From Bacteroidales bacterium OttesenSCG-928-M11 (GTDB lineage Bacteria; Bacteroidota; Bacteroidia; Bacteroidales; Azobacteroidaceae): a stretch of DNA of 64,000 bases. The notes under the pieces were generated by a model. It did not search any database and had not been told where the DNA came from. It saw only the letters and a program-made list of their open reading frames with translations. Positions 4,312 to 63,999 of this stretch are shown here, one piece after another (the first letter of the stretch is position 1; each line of letters opens with the position of its first letter). The stretch is from assembly GCA_030265685.1 (NCBI GenBank), contig JAJDGO010000001.1, forward strand, positions 1 to 64,000, written 5' to 3'. The position numbers and the translations under genes were made by a program.

Positions 4312-4371
4312 TTTTCTGTACAGAGAATTAAACTTTTCTGTACAGAGAATTAAACTTTTCTGTACAGAAAA
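4312..4371. repeat. Family B 22-bp tandem repeat, 3 units
   Basis: TTTTCTGTACAGAGAA-TTAAAC x2 then TTTTCTGTACAGAAAA; units start at 4312, 4334, 4356. Confidence 0.9.
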
Positions 4372-11037: not shown

Positions 11038-11511
11038 ATGAAGAAAGTATTATTATTTTCCGTTTTATTCATATTCACAACTTTAAGTTCGAACGCTTTT
11101 GCACAGAACGACTCGGACAACAAAAGAAAAGAAAGTTTTGAAAAGTTCAAGAAAGAACGAAGAGATTACATCGTAAAAGAAGTCGGTTTGACCGAAGATG
11201 AAGCAGAAACTTTCCTCCCTCTTTGCGACGAGTTGCAAATAAAAAAGTTTGAAGCCGGGAAAGATTTACGAGAAATGCGACACAAAATCCGCGAAAACTC
11301 GAGAAATGGAAATAAAACAACCGAAGCGGAATACGAAAAATTAGTCAAATTAAATGCATCCGTAAAAGTAAAAGAAGCAGAATTGGAAAAAGAATACATA
11401 GATAAATTCCTAACTGTTGTTTCGTCCGAAAAAGTTTACCGCTATCAACGAGCCGAACAAGAATTTGCTCGCAAAATGGTAGAACAACGAAGCCATAAAG
11501 ATAGAAGATAA
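11038..11511 (+). CDS. Periplasmic Spy/CpxP-like protein
   Basis: Signal peptide MKKVLLFSVLFIFTTLSSNAFAQ; ~130-aa charged helical mature domain (VGLTEDEAETFLPLCDELQ). Confidence 0.6.
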   Translation: MKKVLLFSVLFIFTTLSSNAFAQNDSDNKRKESFEKFKKERRDYIVKEVGLTEDEAETFLPLCDELQIKKFEAGKDLREMRHKIRENSRNGNKTTEAEYEKLVKLNASVKVKEAELEKEYIDKFLTVVSSEKVYRYQRAEQEFARKMVEQRSHKDRR

Positions 11512-11575: not shown

Positions 11576-11644
11576 AAACAAACTTCGACGAAGAAAAATC
11601 AATCAATATTCGAATCGCCGGAGAAAGATACCGGAACTTCGATG

Positions 11645-11727
11645 AAGTTATAGTAAAACTTAGGCAAAGTTGTAGTAGAACTTGAGCAAAGTTATTGTAG
11701 AACTTGAGCGAAGTTATAGTAAAACTT
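11645..11727. repeat. Family A 22-bp tandem repeat, 4 units
   Basis: Units at 11645, 11667, 11689, 11711: AAGTTATAGTAAAACTT / AAGTTGTAGTAGAACTT / AAGTTATTGTAGAACTT / AAGTTATAGTAAAACTT with 5-bp linkers. Confidence 0.9.
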
Positions 11728-11812: not shown

Positions 11813-12256
11813 TTACTTCGTAAACTTCACAACGAATTGATATTCGGTATACATCGGATCAAAATTCGTATTATGGTCGTCCATTTTCAAAATAAAAGTG
11901 ATATATCCCGGTTCGAACTCAACAGTTAGATGTTCTTCCCATTTATAATCGCCATCAACATAGAAATCGCTGAAAGGTAAAGCGCTTAAAATACTTACTC
12001 CGTTCAAAGAATAGTAAAAATAACCGATCAACATACCGTCGTTTATCACTTTCCTTGTCAATTGCGCCTCCGGGAAAGTACAATATAAATAGGATCCCGA
12101 ATCATCATAACCCGTTTCCCACATACTATTTTTAACAGTAAATACTTCGCTGTAAATCTCTACAGTTTCAGTAATAAAATAATCTTCATAATACTTTTCT
12201 GTAGTACATGCAGAAAACACTACAGCCATCAATAGAAATAAAAATACTTTCTTCAT
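11813..12256 (-). CDS. Hypothetical lipoprotein
   Basis: MKKVFLFLLMAVVFSACTTEK lipobox. Confidence 0.7.
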   Translation of the reverse strand: MKKVFLFLLMAVVFSACTTEKYYEDYFITETVEIYSEVFTVKNSMWETGYDDSGSYLYCTFPEAQLTRKVINDGMLIGYFYYSLNGVSILSALPFSDFYVDGDYKWEEHLTVEFEPGYITFILKMDDHNTNFDPMYTEYQFVVKFTK

Positions 12257-25448: not shown

Positions 25449-25486
25449 TTTTCTGTACAGATAATTAAACTTTTCTGTACAGAAAA
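25449..25486. repeat. Family B 22-bp tandem repeat, 2 units
   Basis: TTTTCTGTACAGATAA-TTAAAC-TTTTCTGTACAGAAAA. Confidence 0.9.
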
Positions 25487-25736
25487 TATATCAAGTCTTA
25501 GTATCTTTTTAATCAACAGATTCTGATACTCTAAAAAAAACAATAAGTATTTTTTAGAAAATAATACTCTTTTTTATATTTGACACCTAAAAAAAATAAA
25601 TTTAGCACATAAAACAGGCGTCATATATATACTTTTGTCTGGTCTTTTCTATGAATTAACGATGGATAACTAAAATCTTTAAATGAGCAAAAAACAACCC
25701 TTTTCATCAATAAATAGAGAAAGGCTATTAAAGTAA

Positions 25737-33239: not shown

Positions 33240-33277
33240 TTTTCTGTACAGAGAATAAAAGTTTTCTGTACAGAAAA
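33240..33277. repeat. Family B 22-bp tandem repeat, 2 units
   Basis: TTTTCTGTACAGAGAA-TAAAAG-TTTTCTGTACAGAAAA. Confidence 0.9.
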
Positions 33278-42429: not shown

Positions 42430-43683
42430 ATGATAAAACTAAATTTATTAATTATCGGAATTTTATTGTCCTTGACGGTACATTCACAAACTAAAAACAT
42501 CGATTGGGATGCTGATTTGGATTATTTAGCGAATGAATTACCCCAAAAACACTACAATTTTTTCACTCTAAAAAGCAAAAATGATTTCCTATCAGGTATA
42601 GATGCAATTAAAGAAGAGAATATAGGCGTGAGTGATTTTCAGGTTGCCTTGAAAACTCAACAATTAATTGCAAAATTTGGCGATTCTCACACAATGCTGA
42701 ATTTTAGTCAGCTACTAAATCCCAATCAAATACTTCCAATTCATTTATTTTGGGCAAGCGATGGGCTTTATATTTTGCGAACAACAAAAGAAAATGAAAA
42801 AATATTGGGTTGCCAATTGCTATCAATCAATAACATTCCGATAGCTACGGTAATAGATAGTTTGAGCACACTATTTGCTGTCGACAATCAAGCTATGATA
42901 AAAACACTTGTCCCTCAAACATTTCCTTCTTTGCAAATCTTAGAATATTTTGGCTTTGCAAATACAGAGCAAGTAGTACTTGGTTTAAAGACAGAAACAA
43001 TGCAAAACCAGGAATATACATTAAAATCATCGCTGGCAAAACGGGAGGATCTAGTTTTTTTCAAGCCCGATTCTATTGCTTTTTGCCTAAAAAATGAAAA
43101 ACAAATTTTTACGGATCATTATTACAATGAGGAAAAAATTTATCATATACTATATAATAAATGCTTTAGTAAAGAAATTGCGTTGGAGTATGGAAATAAA
43201 GAACTGGCCGAAACCCTACCATCATTCAAAGAATTTGAAGAGAAAATATTGAATACTTTAGCCTCTGAACCTGTTACTAAAATAATATTCGACATGAGAT
43301 TTAATGGCGGGGGAAATTCTGCGCAAGGTACAAGATTCATAGAAAAGTTGGCCGAATTTTTAGAATCGAATCCCACGATTAAGACCTATGTTGTTATTGG
43401 CAGATCTACTTTTTCTTCAGCCATATTGAACACTATGGATTTCAAACGATTAACTAATGCTATATTTATAGGGGAAGAAACCTCCGGCAAACCCAATCAT
43501 TTTGGAGAAATAAAAAAACTCCAACTACCTTCTTCTAAAATATCTATCAACTATTCCACCAAATATTTCAAAGTAACAGAAACAGATGTGAACACCATCA
43601 CTCCCGACATTACAATAGAAATGAGTTTTTCTGATCTAAAAAAAGGTATTGATCCTATTTTTGAATGGGTAAAAGAACAGTAA
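42430..43683 (+). CDS. S41-family peptidase-like secreted protein
   Basis: FGDSHTML, IFDMRFNGGGNSAQG, VIGRSTFSSAILN, FIGEETSGKPNHFGE. Confidence 0.85.
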   Translation: MIKLNLLIIGILLSLTVHSQTKNIDWDADLDYLANELPQKHYNFFTLKSKNDFLSGIDAIKEENIGVSDFQVALKTQQLIAKFGDSHTMLNFSQLLNPNQILPIHLFWASDGLYILRTTKENEKILGCQLLSINNIPIATVIDSLSTLFAVDNQAMIKTLVPQTFPSLQILEYFGFANTEQVVLGLKTETMQNQEYTLKSSLAKREDLVFFKPDSIAFCLKNEKQIFTDHYYNEEKIYHILYNKCFSKEIALEYGNKELAETLPSFKEFEEKILNTLASEPVTKIIFDMRFNGGGNSAQGTRFIEKLAEFLESNPTIKTYVVIGRSTFSSAILNTMDFKRLTNAIFIGEETSGKPNHFGEIKKLQLPSSKISINYSTKYFKVTETDVNTITPDITIEMSFSDLKKGIDPIFEWVKEQ

Positions 43684-43722: not shown

Positions 43723-43827
43723 AAAAAATACTATAACTTGTGATAAGTTATTGTAGAACTTCGATCAAGTTATACTAAAACTTGAAGCAAGTTATACTAA
43801 AACTTGGGGAAAGCTATACTATCTTGG
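43723..43827. repeat. Family A 22-bp tandem repeat, 5 units (first and last degenerate)
   Basis: Units at 43723, 43745, 43767, 43789, 43811; core AAGTTATACTAAAACTT. Confidence 0.9.
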
Positions 43828-62411: not shown

Positions 62412-62516
62412 AAAAGATACTATAACTTGTCCAAAGTTATTAGGAAACTTGCATCAAGTTATAGTAGAACTTTATACAAGTTATAGTAATACTTTAGTCA
62501 AGTTATACGGAAACTT
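62412..62516. repeat. Family A 22-bp tandem repeat, 5 units
   Basis: Units at 62412, 62434, 62456, 62478, 62500; core AAGTTATAGTAGAACTT; ends 1 bp from a stop codon. Confidence 0.9.
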
Positions 62517-62517
62517 T

Positions 62518-63999
62518 TCACAGAGCTTCTATATTCTTATCGTTAAGAATGTGTTTTCCCTCCGGAGTATATAAATAATCCAGGCGATCTTTATATTTTT
62601 GTTCGATTTTGCCACGTACCATTTTCATCGAAGAATTTAACAATTGGTTTTGTTCGGTAAATGCTTCCGGAAGAATTGCAATAGAAGCCGGTAACCAACG
62701 TTCGGGATATTCGCCGGCATAAATACCTTTTCCTTTGTAATCTGCTATAACTTCTTGTATTTTCAACAAGGCCATTTCTTTTGCCTCTCGAGTATCCCAC
62801 AATAAATTAGGATTTGTTTGTTTTACGTAAGCTTTTAGTTGTTCTTTGTTAGGAACAATAAGTCCAACCGTATAAGGATCTTGGTTATTGTGTAATAGTA
62901 TCTGATCAATATATTTGGTTTTATCGGCTATCCCCTCCTCTATTCCTTCCGGACTATATTTTTCACCATCGCTACTAATTAATAAACTTTTGAAACGTCC
63001 TAAGACATAAAGAAATCCATCCGAATCTACATAACCCATGTCTCCTGTATATAACCAGCCGTCTTTAATTGTTTCTGCCGTAGCTTCTTGATTTTTCCAG
63101 TAACCTAACATTACATTTTCGCCCTTAACTACAATTTCTCCCCTCTTTCCTAAAGGAAGTGCATTACCTTCGAGGTCACATATTTTGAGATCGAGGTTTG
63201 ACACCAATATTCCCGAAGATCCCAGTTTGTGTTTATGTACTGTATTTGCCGAAATAATAGGCGTTGCTTCCGATAATCCATAACCTTGAAACATAGGAAT
63301 CCCTACTGCATAAAAGAAACGTTGTAGTTCAATATCGAGCAAAGCTCCGCCGCCAATAAAAAACTTCAATCGGCCACCCAATCCTTCTCTTATTTTAGAA
63401 AAGATCAGCTTGTCGTAAATAGAAAGTAATATTTTTTTGTGAAATTGCGAGACACCCCCTTTATTGTATCCTTCTTTATTATATTCATAAGCCGTTTTAA
63501 GGGCATGGCGAAAAAGCTTTTCTGTTGTTTTTCCTTTCTTTTGAATCGTCGATTCAATATTTTTACGAAAATTTTTAGCCAAAGCCGGCACACTCATCAG
63601 TACCGTAGGCTTAAACTCTTTGATATTCATCGGGATATTCTTCAACGACTCGATAGGAGTTTTACCAGTTTGCACTGTGGCTACATTGGCTCCGTAAGCC
63701 ATAAATGAATAAAATCCGGCAACATGTCCAAAACAATGGTCAAGAGGAATTATAATCAAGTTGCTATCTTCGGGATCTATTTTGATCAAAGACATGGCTT
63801 GTTCTACATTCGCCGTATAGTTTCGATGAGAAAGCATAATTCCTTTTGGGTCGGCAGTAGTTCCCGATGTATAAGAAATGTTTGCCATATCATTTCCTTT
63901 TACTGCTTTGCTTCTTTTTACGACATTATCTAAATTGTTTTCCAGATACTCATCGCCCATTTTCAAAACCATCTCCAGAGAGATTTCTTTTTCTTCGTA
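62518..63999 (-). CDS. AMP-dependent synthetase / long-chain acyl-CoA ligase (5'-truncated by window edge)
   Basis: ISYTSGTTADPKGIMLSHRN; GYGLSEATPIISAN; WLYTGDMGYVDSDGFLYVLGR; frame open beyond 63972 to the edge. Confidence 0.92.
   Translation of the reverse strand, partial: YEEKEISLEMVLKMGDEYLENNLDNVVKRSKAVKGNDMANISYTSGTTADPKGIMLSHRNYTANVEQAMSLIKIDPEDSNLIIIPLDHCFGHVAGFYSFMAYGANVATVQTGKTPIESLKNIPMNIKEFKPTVLMSVPALAKNFRKNIESTIQKKGKTTEKLFRHALKTAYEYNKEGYNKGGVSQFHKKILLSIYDKLIFSKIREGLGGRLKFFIGGGALLDIELQRFFYAVGIPMFQGYGLSEATPIISANTVHKHKLGSSGILVSNLDLKICDLEGNALPLGKRGEIVVKGENVMLGYWKNQEATAETIKDGWLYTGDMGYVDSDGFLYVLGRFKSLLISSDGEKYSPEGIEEGIADKTKYIDQILLHNNQDPYTVGLIVPNKEQLKAYVKQTNPNLLWDTREAKEMALLKIQEVIADYKGKGIYAGEYPERWLPASIAILPEAFTEQNQLLNSSMKMVRGKIEQKYKDRLDYLYTPEGKHILNDKNIEAL

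Follow-up and report, generated by a model that had tools for sequence, protein, structure and literature searches.

What is the 22-bp repeat at positions 43723-43827, and what might it do on the chromosome that carries it? The window, that is, the whole 64-kb stretch of DNA analysed here, forms the start of an 82-kb contig from a genome (G000) of 1.48 Mb in 83 contigs that is 52% complete. By ribosomal protein L2, whose nearest matches by a wide margin are chains 9i5t and 7jil (7jil being the Flavobacterium johnsoniae ribosome), the organism is probably a Bacteroidota. Arrays were counted in 1.243 Mb of G000, read in stretches, and gene positions were taken from a simple greedy ORF method, which limits the spacing null given below. 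The comparison set comprised 40 further congener genomes of 1.0–5.4 Mb each, including G028, which is 99% complete in ~50 contigs.

Architecture of the arrays

A sequence-only reading had described the locus as units starting exactly every 22 bp (43723, 43745, 43767, 43789 and 43811), with the same element at 11645-11727 and 62412-62516 and always in intergenic DNA. The spacing is exact at all three loci, and all three are intergenic. The unit at 43811, which had been taken for a fifth core, is instead the right end module of a complete type-A array on the plus strand, consisting of a left end module (43723-43739, AAAAAATACTATAACTT), three core units (43745-43761, 43767-43783 and 43789-43805) and the right end module (43811-43827, AAGCTATACTATCTTGG), joined by the linkers gtgat, cgatc, gaagc and gggga. 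The array lies between convergent genes for a peptidase S41 (42430-43683, +) and ribosomal protein L17 (44002-44529, −). A second type-A array (11623-11727, +) has a degenerate left end (11623-11639, GAAAGATACCGGAACTT) followed by four units at 11645, 11667, 11689 and 11711, and is flanked by convergent ORFs (11038-11511, + and 11813-12256, −). The third (62412-62516, +) consists of a left end (62412-62428, AAAAGATACTATAACTT) and units at 62434 (the variant AAGTTATTAGGAAACTT), 62456, 62478 and 62500, directly downstream of the minus-strand gene of an AMP-binding enzyme (62518-63972).

The defined left end proposed earlier for 43723-43827 and 62412-62516 proved to be a terminal module found across the genome, AAAARATACTATAACTT, with 44 matches on both strands at up to 2 mismatches; it is not confined to those two arrays, since the degenerate copy opens the array at 11623. 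Type-A arrays are closed on one or both sides by AAAARATACTATAACTT or its reverse complement, and a T-run follows the end module.

The A unit is AAGTTNTASTANAACTT plus a 5-bp linker. Its core had been described as self-complementary at 13 of 17 positions; comparing AAGTTATACTAAAACTT with its reverse complement gives 14/17, the exceptions being the centre and positions 6/12. The window holds 11 matches to the core at up to 2 mismatches, against 1.26 expected. The A array is real and genome-wide, extending well beyond the three loci noted before: a scan of the whole of G000 for two adjacent units (up to 3 mismatches) returned 159 matches per strand and none for the reversed pattern, the arrays being symmetric and hence alike on both strands. 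At the core centre, 111 of 112 well-matched units have C or G. Purines predominate at linker position 2, where T hardly ever occurs, and pyrimidines at position 4, where A and G are seldom seen, a constraint (NRNYN) that is itself symmetric under reverse complement. The lattice therefore has two dyad axes 11 bp apart, one at the core centre and one at the linker centre, a dyad signature at the DNA level.

A palindrome unrelated to A, TTTTCTGTACAGAAAA (B), occurs at 82 places in G000 compared with 2 for the control, and its family core can be written CTGTACAG. Its period is again 22 bp, its linkers include TTAAAC, GTTTAA and TATATA, and it frequently enters A arrays in register, taking the place of A on the same 22-bp beat to give a mosaic. 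Three B arrays, none assigned to a strand, lie in the window: three TTTTCTGTACAGAAAA palindromes 22 bp apart with the linker TTAAAC at 4312-4371, where the right arm is GAGAA in two of the three units; a pair of units at the same 22-bp distance and then an A-type end-like unit, AAGTCTTAGTATCTTTT, at 25449-25509; and a further pair with this spacing, flanked by convergent genes, at 33240-33277. In total, the 1.243 Mb contain 87 arrays, of which 43 are type A, 29 type B and 15 mixed. Autocorrelation further revealed a rare third family, C (CTCATTAGATGAG, 22 bp), at four loci (C12:43762, C23:48108, C56:44921 and C78:17297). At 2.4 kb, the distance from the C12 copy to an A array is shorter than that of any A/B pair.

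Gene context and spacing in G000

In DNA that is 91% coding, none of the 87 arrays lies inside an ORF of at least 100 aa. Gaps that hold arrays are tandem in 38 cases, convergent in 27 and divergent in 17 (n = 82), compared with 132, 46 and 57 among all gaps of at least 150 bp (n = 235), so that convergent gaps are enriched (27/82 vs 46/235). Of the 38 arrays in tandem gaps, 33 are closer to the upstream stop (median 70 vs 176 bp), and the T-run end ignores gene orientation, being correctly directed in 4 tandem cases and wrongly in 6.

The completeness of the array at 43723-43827, the B palindrome in the same register and the over-dispersion of the arrays had all been overlooked by the sequence-only reading. 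G000 carries about a hundred arrays, roughly one per ~11 kb. The 43 within-contig intervals between arrays of at least two recognised A or B units, a set that left out the rare family C, range from 5152 to 28221 bp with a CV of 0.40. When an equal number of arrays was dropped randomly into the same intergenic gaps, 12–13 intervals fell below 5 kb with a CV of ~0.78, and 0 of 5000 trials were as even. Evenness persisted when weak single-unit matches were included (5 intervals below 5 kb vs 15–16 expected). The minimum A-A distance is 9.4 kb, compared with 5.15 kb for A-B. A and B seemed to alternate on the chromosome (21 A-B neighbours vs 14.3 expected, P = 0.017), but this pattern disappeared with within-contig shuffles (P = 0.41) and was discarded. 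Arrays within 1 kb of contig ends number 11 vs 5.3 expected; we rejected an assembly artefact as the source of the even spacing, as these are too few to explain the loss of every close pair and the G028 assembly has no more than ~50 contigs.

Unrelated palindromes in a related genome

Pattern scans found A absent from 36 congeners and B from 40, with G028 lacking both; judged by these scans, the arrays are species-specific. The exact two-unit A pattern had no match in GTDB contigs, a set from which the array's own genome was possibly left out, and no plasmid or phage copies of the 43.7–44.0 kb region were found. Rfam matches above the gathering threshold were limited to tRNAs, one in the window and one across four G028 loci, and our search of open-access papers returned none on these sequences or this layout. 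Within Rfam and that literature, the earlier statement that no named repeat family has this consensus stands.

The intergenic DNA of G028 carries four other palindrome families with periods of 21–23 bp (loci L072, L073, L122-L129 and L182-L201): f1 (TCTTAGTAGA, 23 bp), f2 (AAATWWATTT with ACGTRCG, 22 bp), f3 (GTTTCA-N6-TGAAAC, 23 bp) and f4 (AAACTCASTGAGTTT, 21-22 bp). The f3 and f4 patterns were not found in any other congener; family C of G000 resembles f3 except that its core is one base shorter. The f1 family is a collinear multi-unit dispersed element, with a mean column identity of 84% over 17 aligned loci and a constant 3' end that has 86 matches in G028. At L072 13079-13162 (contig C1 of G028), 5.5 kb from an f1 array, we also noted ACGTACGT-like palindromes with AAATTTATTT linkers.

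Spacing was analysed in these two genomes, G000 and G028. After arrays less than 1 kb apart were merged, which affected three cases, all confined to a single intergenic region or spanning a probably spurious 62-aa ORF, the intervals in G028 number 34, the shortest being 4129 bp, with a CV of 0.40, compared with ~8–9 intervals below 4 kb and a CV of 0.83–0.91 under random placement, and again 0 of 5000 trials were as even. For f1 alone across the whole of G028, 1 of 51 intervals is below 10 kb vs 17–20 expected; f1-f1 distances mostly exceed 10.9 kb, and close inverted and direct f1 pairs are both excluded. Short samples of other congeners contain few arrays. TTAGTA arrays with a 23-bp period, intergenic by eye, occur at L092 ~1350-1700 (G030) and L096 ~1480-1620 (G008), and these short arrays suggest that the phenomenon may be wider.

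Complementarity at positions 6/12 of the A core was rejected as proof of a hairpin, as pairing there is avoided: the two positions are Watson-Crick paired in 15 of 172 units vs 49.7 expected after shuffling. Pairs are few because an asymmetric centre, RTASTAR, occurs both ways between inverted arms. Some aligned f1 copies have TCT-TAGT-AGA as their last unit and others TCT-ACTA-AGA, the flanks being unchanged, and f3 centres likewise occur in both orientations, with positions 2/5 paired in 1 of 33 units vs 10.3 expected. Flipped centres of this kind would arise if a short spacer between inverted arms were itself turned round, for example by template switching.

Possible roles and comparison with known systems

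We read the arrays, tentatively and at somewhat less than an even chance, as BIME-like interspersed intergenic mosaic repeats that are predicted to be bound by protein and to serve as evenly spaced architectural or insulating chromosome marks. Half-sites of opposite orientation follow one another at steps of ~11 bp, which would present a half-site on the same face at each helical turn. A DNA-binding protein, or several paralogues, would bind cooperatively along the array by means of two dimer interfaces, and the coated arrays would act as marks placed once per ~11 kb. Among the three roles suggested earlier, a protein-binding array on one helix face fits best, and we favour it because of the two dyads 11 bp apart, the G:C/C:G centre, the symmetric linker constraint and the unrelated palindromes in one register; the mobile repeat is half supported and the RNA hairpin weakly. 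Counting against protein-bound marks are the species specificity of the arrays, the restriction of the spacing analysis to two genomes, the good RNA folding of the units described below and the putative status of the binding protein. Insertion immunity is another possible source of the even spacing, as is selection against nearby repeats.

Those two processes are central to the possible, if doubtful, explanation that the arrays are non-autonomous selfish elements, dispersed in the manner of MITEs or BIMEs and playing no role for the host. The collinear f1 element with its constant 3' end, the defined end modules of A arrays and the restriction of families to single species all suit such elements, as does the wider spacing within a family (A-A and f1-f1) than between families. 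However, unrelated families also keep apart, both A from B and the families of G028 from one another, and the exclusion of inverted as well as direct f1 pairs makes deletion between direct repeats insufficient. No target-site duplication was recognised by eye, and no Y1 transposase (PF01797) was found in G000 (52% complete) or G028 (99% complete), so the mobile-repeat suggestion gains a dispersed element from f1 and still lacks a REP transposase. PF01797 exceeds the cut-off in 19 of 41 congeners, with up to 13 matches in one, and none of these 19 has A, B, f3 or f4 arrays. Improbable, in our view, are RNA elements at gene ends, namely hairpins in tandem or terminators working in both directions, which would protect transcripts or end them. 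The proximity of arrays to upstream stops, the enrichment of convergent gaps and the T-run after the end module are in line with the REP-like 3'-end hairpin suggested earlier. As AT-rich near-palindromes, the units also form good RNA folds (z −2.6 to −5.7), better than shuffles because they are palindromic. Against this stand the 17 arrays in divergent gaps and the unoriented T-run, which do not fit the hairpin and T-run of intrinsic terminators, oriented downstream of genes, as well as an f1 covariation term of only −0.45, almost nil, and the avoidance of pairing at positions 6/12; nor does an RNA role predict even spacing.

DNA uptake sequences, which competent cells take up preferentially, are short oligomers that occur singly and in large part within genes. 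The passage that deals with them in PMC1939737, citing Karlin et al., reports them as evenly spaced and in both orientations in Haemophilus and Neisseria and agrees with many lying in genes. Evenly spaced uptake or exchange signals able to form inverted pairs near gene ends would match the spacing and the symmetry by which arrays read alike on both strands. Unlike uptake sequences, however, the arrays are tandem rather than single oligomers, never lie in genes (0/87) and belong to several unrelated families that coexist in one genome, making this explanation very improbable.

Returning to protein-bound marks, even spacing, intergenic placement, a symmetric lattice and a two-turn register are common to unrelated sequences, which suggests that a shared constraint falls on geometry and position and not on one sequence. 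By extension, the arrays may be punctuation that depends on geometry and is independent of sequence, in which any two-turn (21–23 bp) palindrome would serve, families would turn over between species, and one array per ~11 kb would be selected, with exclusion of ~5 kb between any two arrays and ~10 kb within a family; we consider this extension rather unlikely. Evenly spaced unrelated families in two genomes make an old question testable, namely whether such repeats are domain marks or a by-product of spread. If they are domain marks, the 22-bp lattice could be used as bait for its protein.

Among known systems, CRISPR arrays have cas genes and long unique spacers between their direct repeats; judged by spacers, the arrays here do not match, theirs being 5 bp long with the symmetric constraint NRNYN. 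The BOX elements of pneumococcus combine terminal modules with a variable number of internal modules; the arrays described here likewise have end modules and variable internal units, and differ in their 22-bp palindromic internal module, and they are not known to be related to BOX in sequence. SlmA, Noc and MatP sites are dispersed palindromic chromosomal marks, each set bound by one protein. Those sets are single conserved sites common to relatives, whereas here the marks are arrays that differ between species.

BIMEs and REPs of E. coli, Pseudomonas and Stenotrophomonas are intergenic, high-copy, species-specific palindromes with a proposed chromosome-organising role (PMC2817692), and REPs are marked by a tag and a RAYT (PMC2817692, PMC3733652). 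REPs and BIMEs also bind gyrase, IHF or DNA polymerase I. The GTAG/CGTC tag, conserved at one end of the REP palindrome, is absent from A AAGTTNTASTANAACTT and B TTTTCTGTACAGAAAA, with GTAG present only in the minority of A units that have G at position 12, and RAYT-driven REPs were rejected, as no RAYT gene was found in G000 or G028. Failed membership of the REPs is no argument against a REP-like role. High-copy intergenic palindromic units are what we find (159 pair matches; no array in an ORF of at least 100 aa), and the likeness to BIMEs extends to species specificity, palindromic units in alternating orientation and a mosaic of motif types. Unlike BIMEs, the arrays keep a strict 22-bp register with 5–6-bp linkers, are evenly spaced along the chromosome and accommodate several unrelated palindromes per register.
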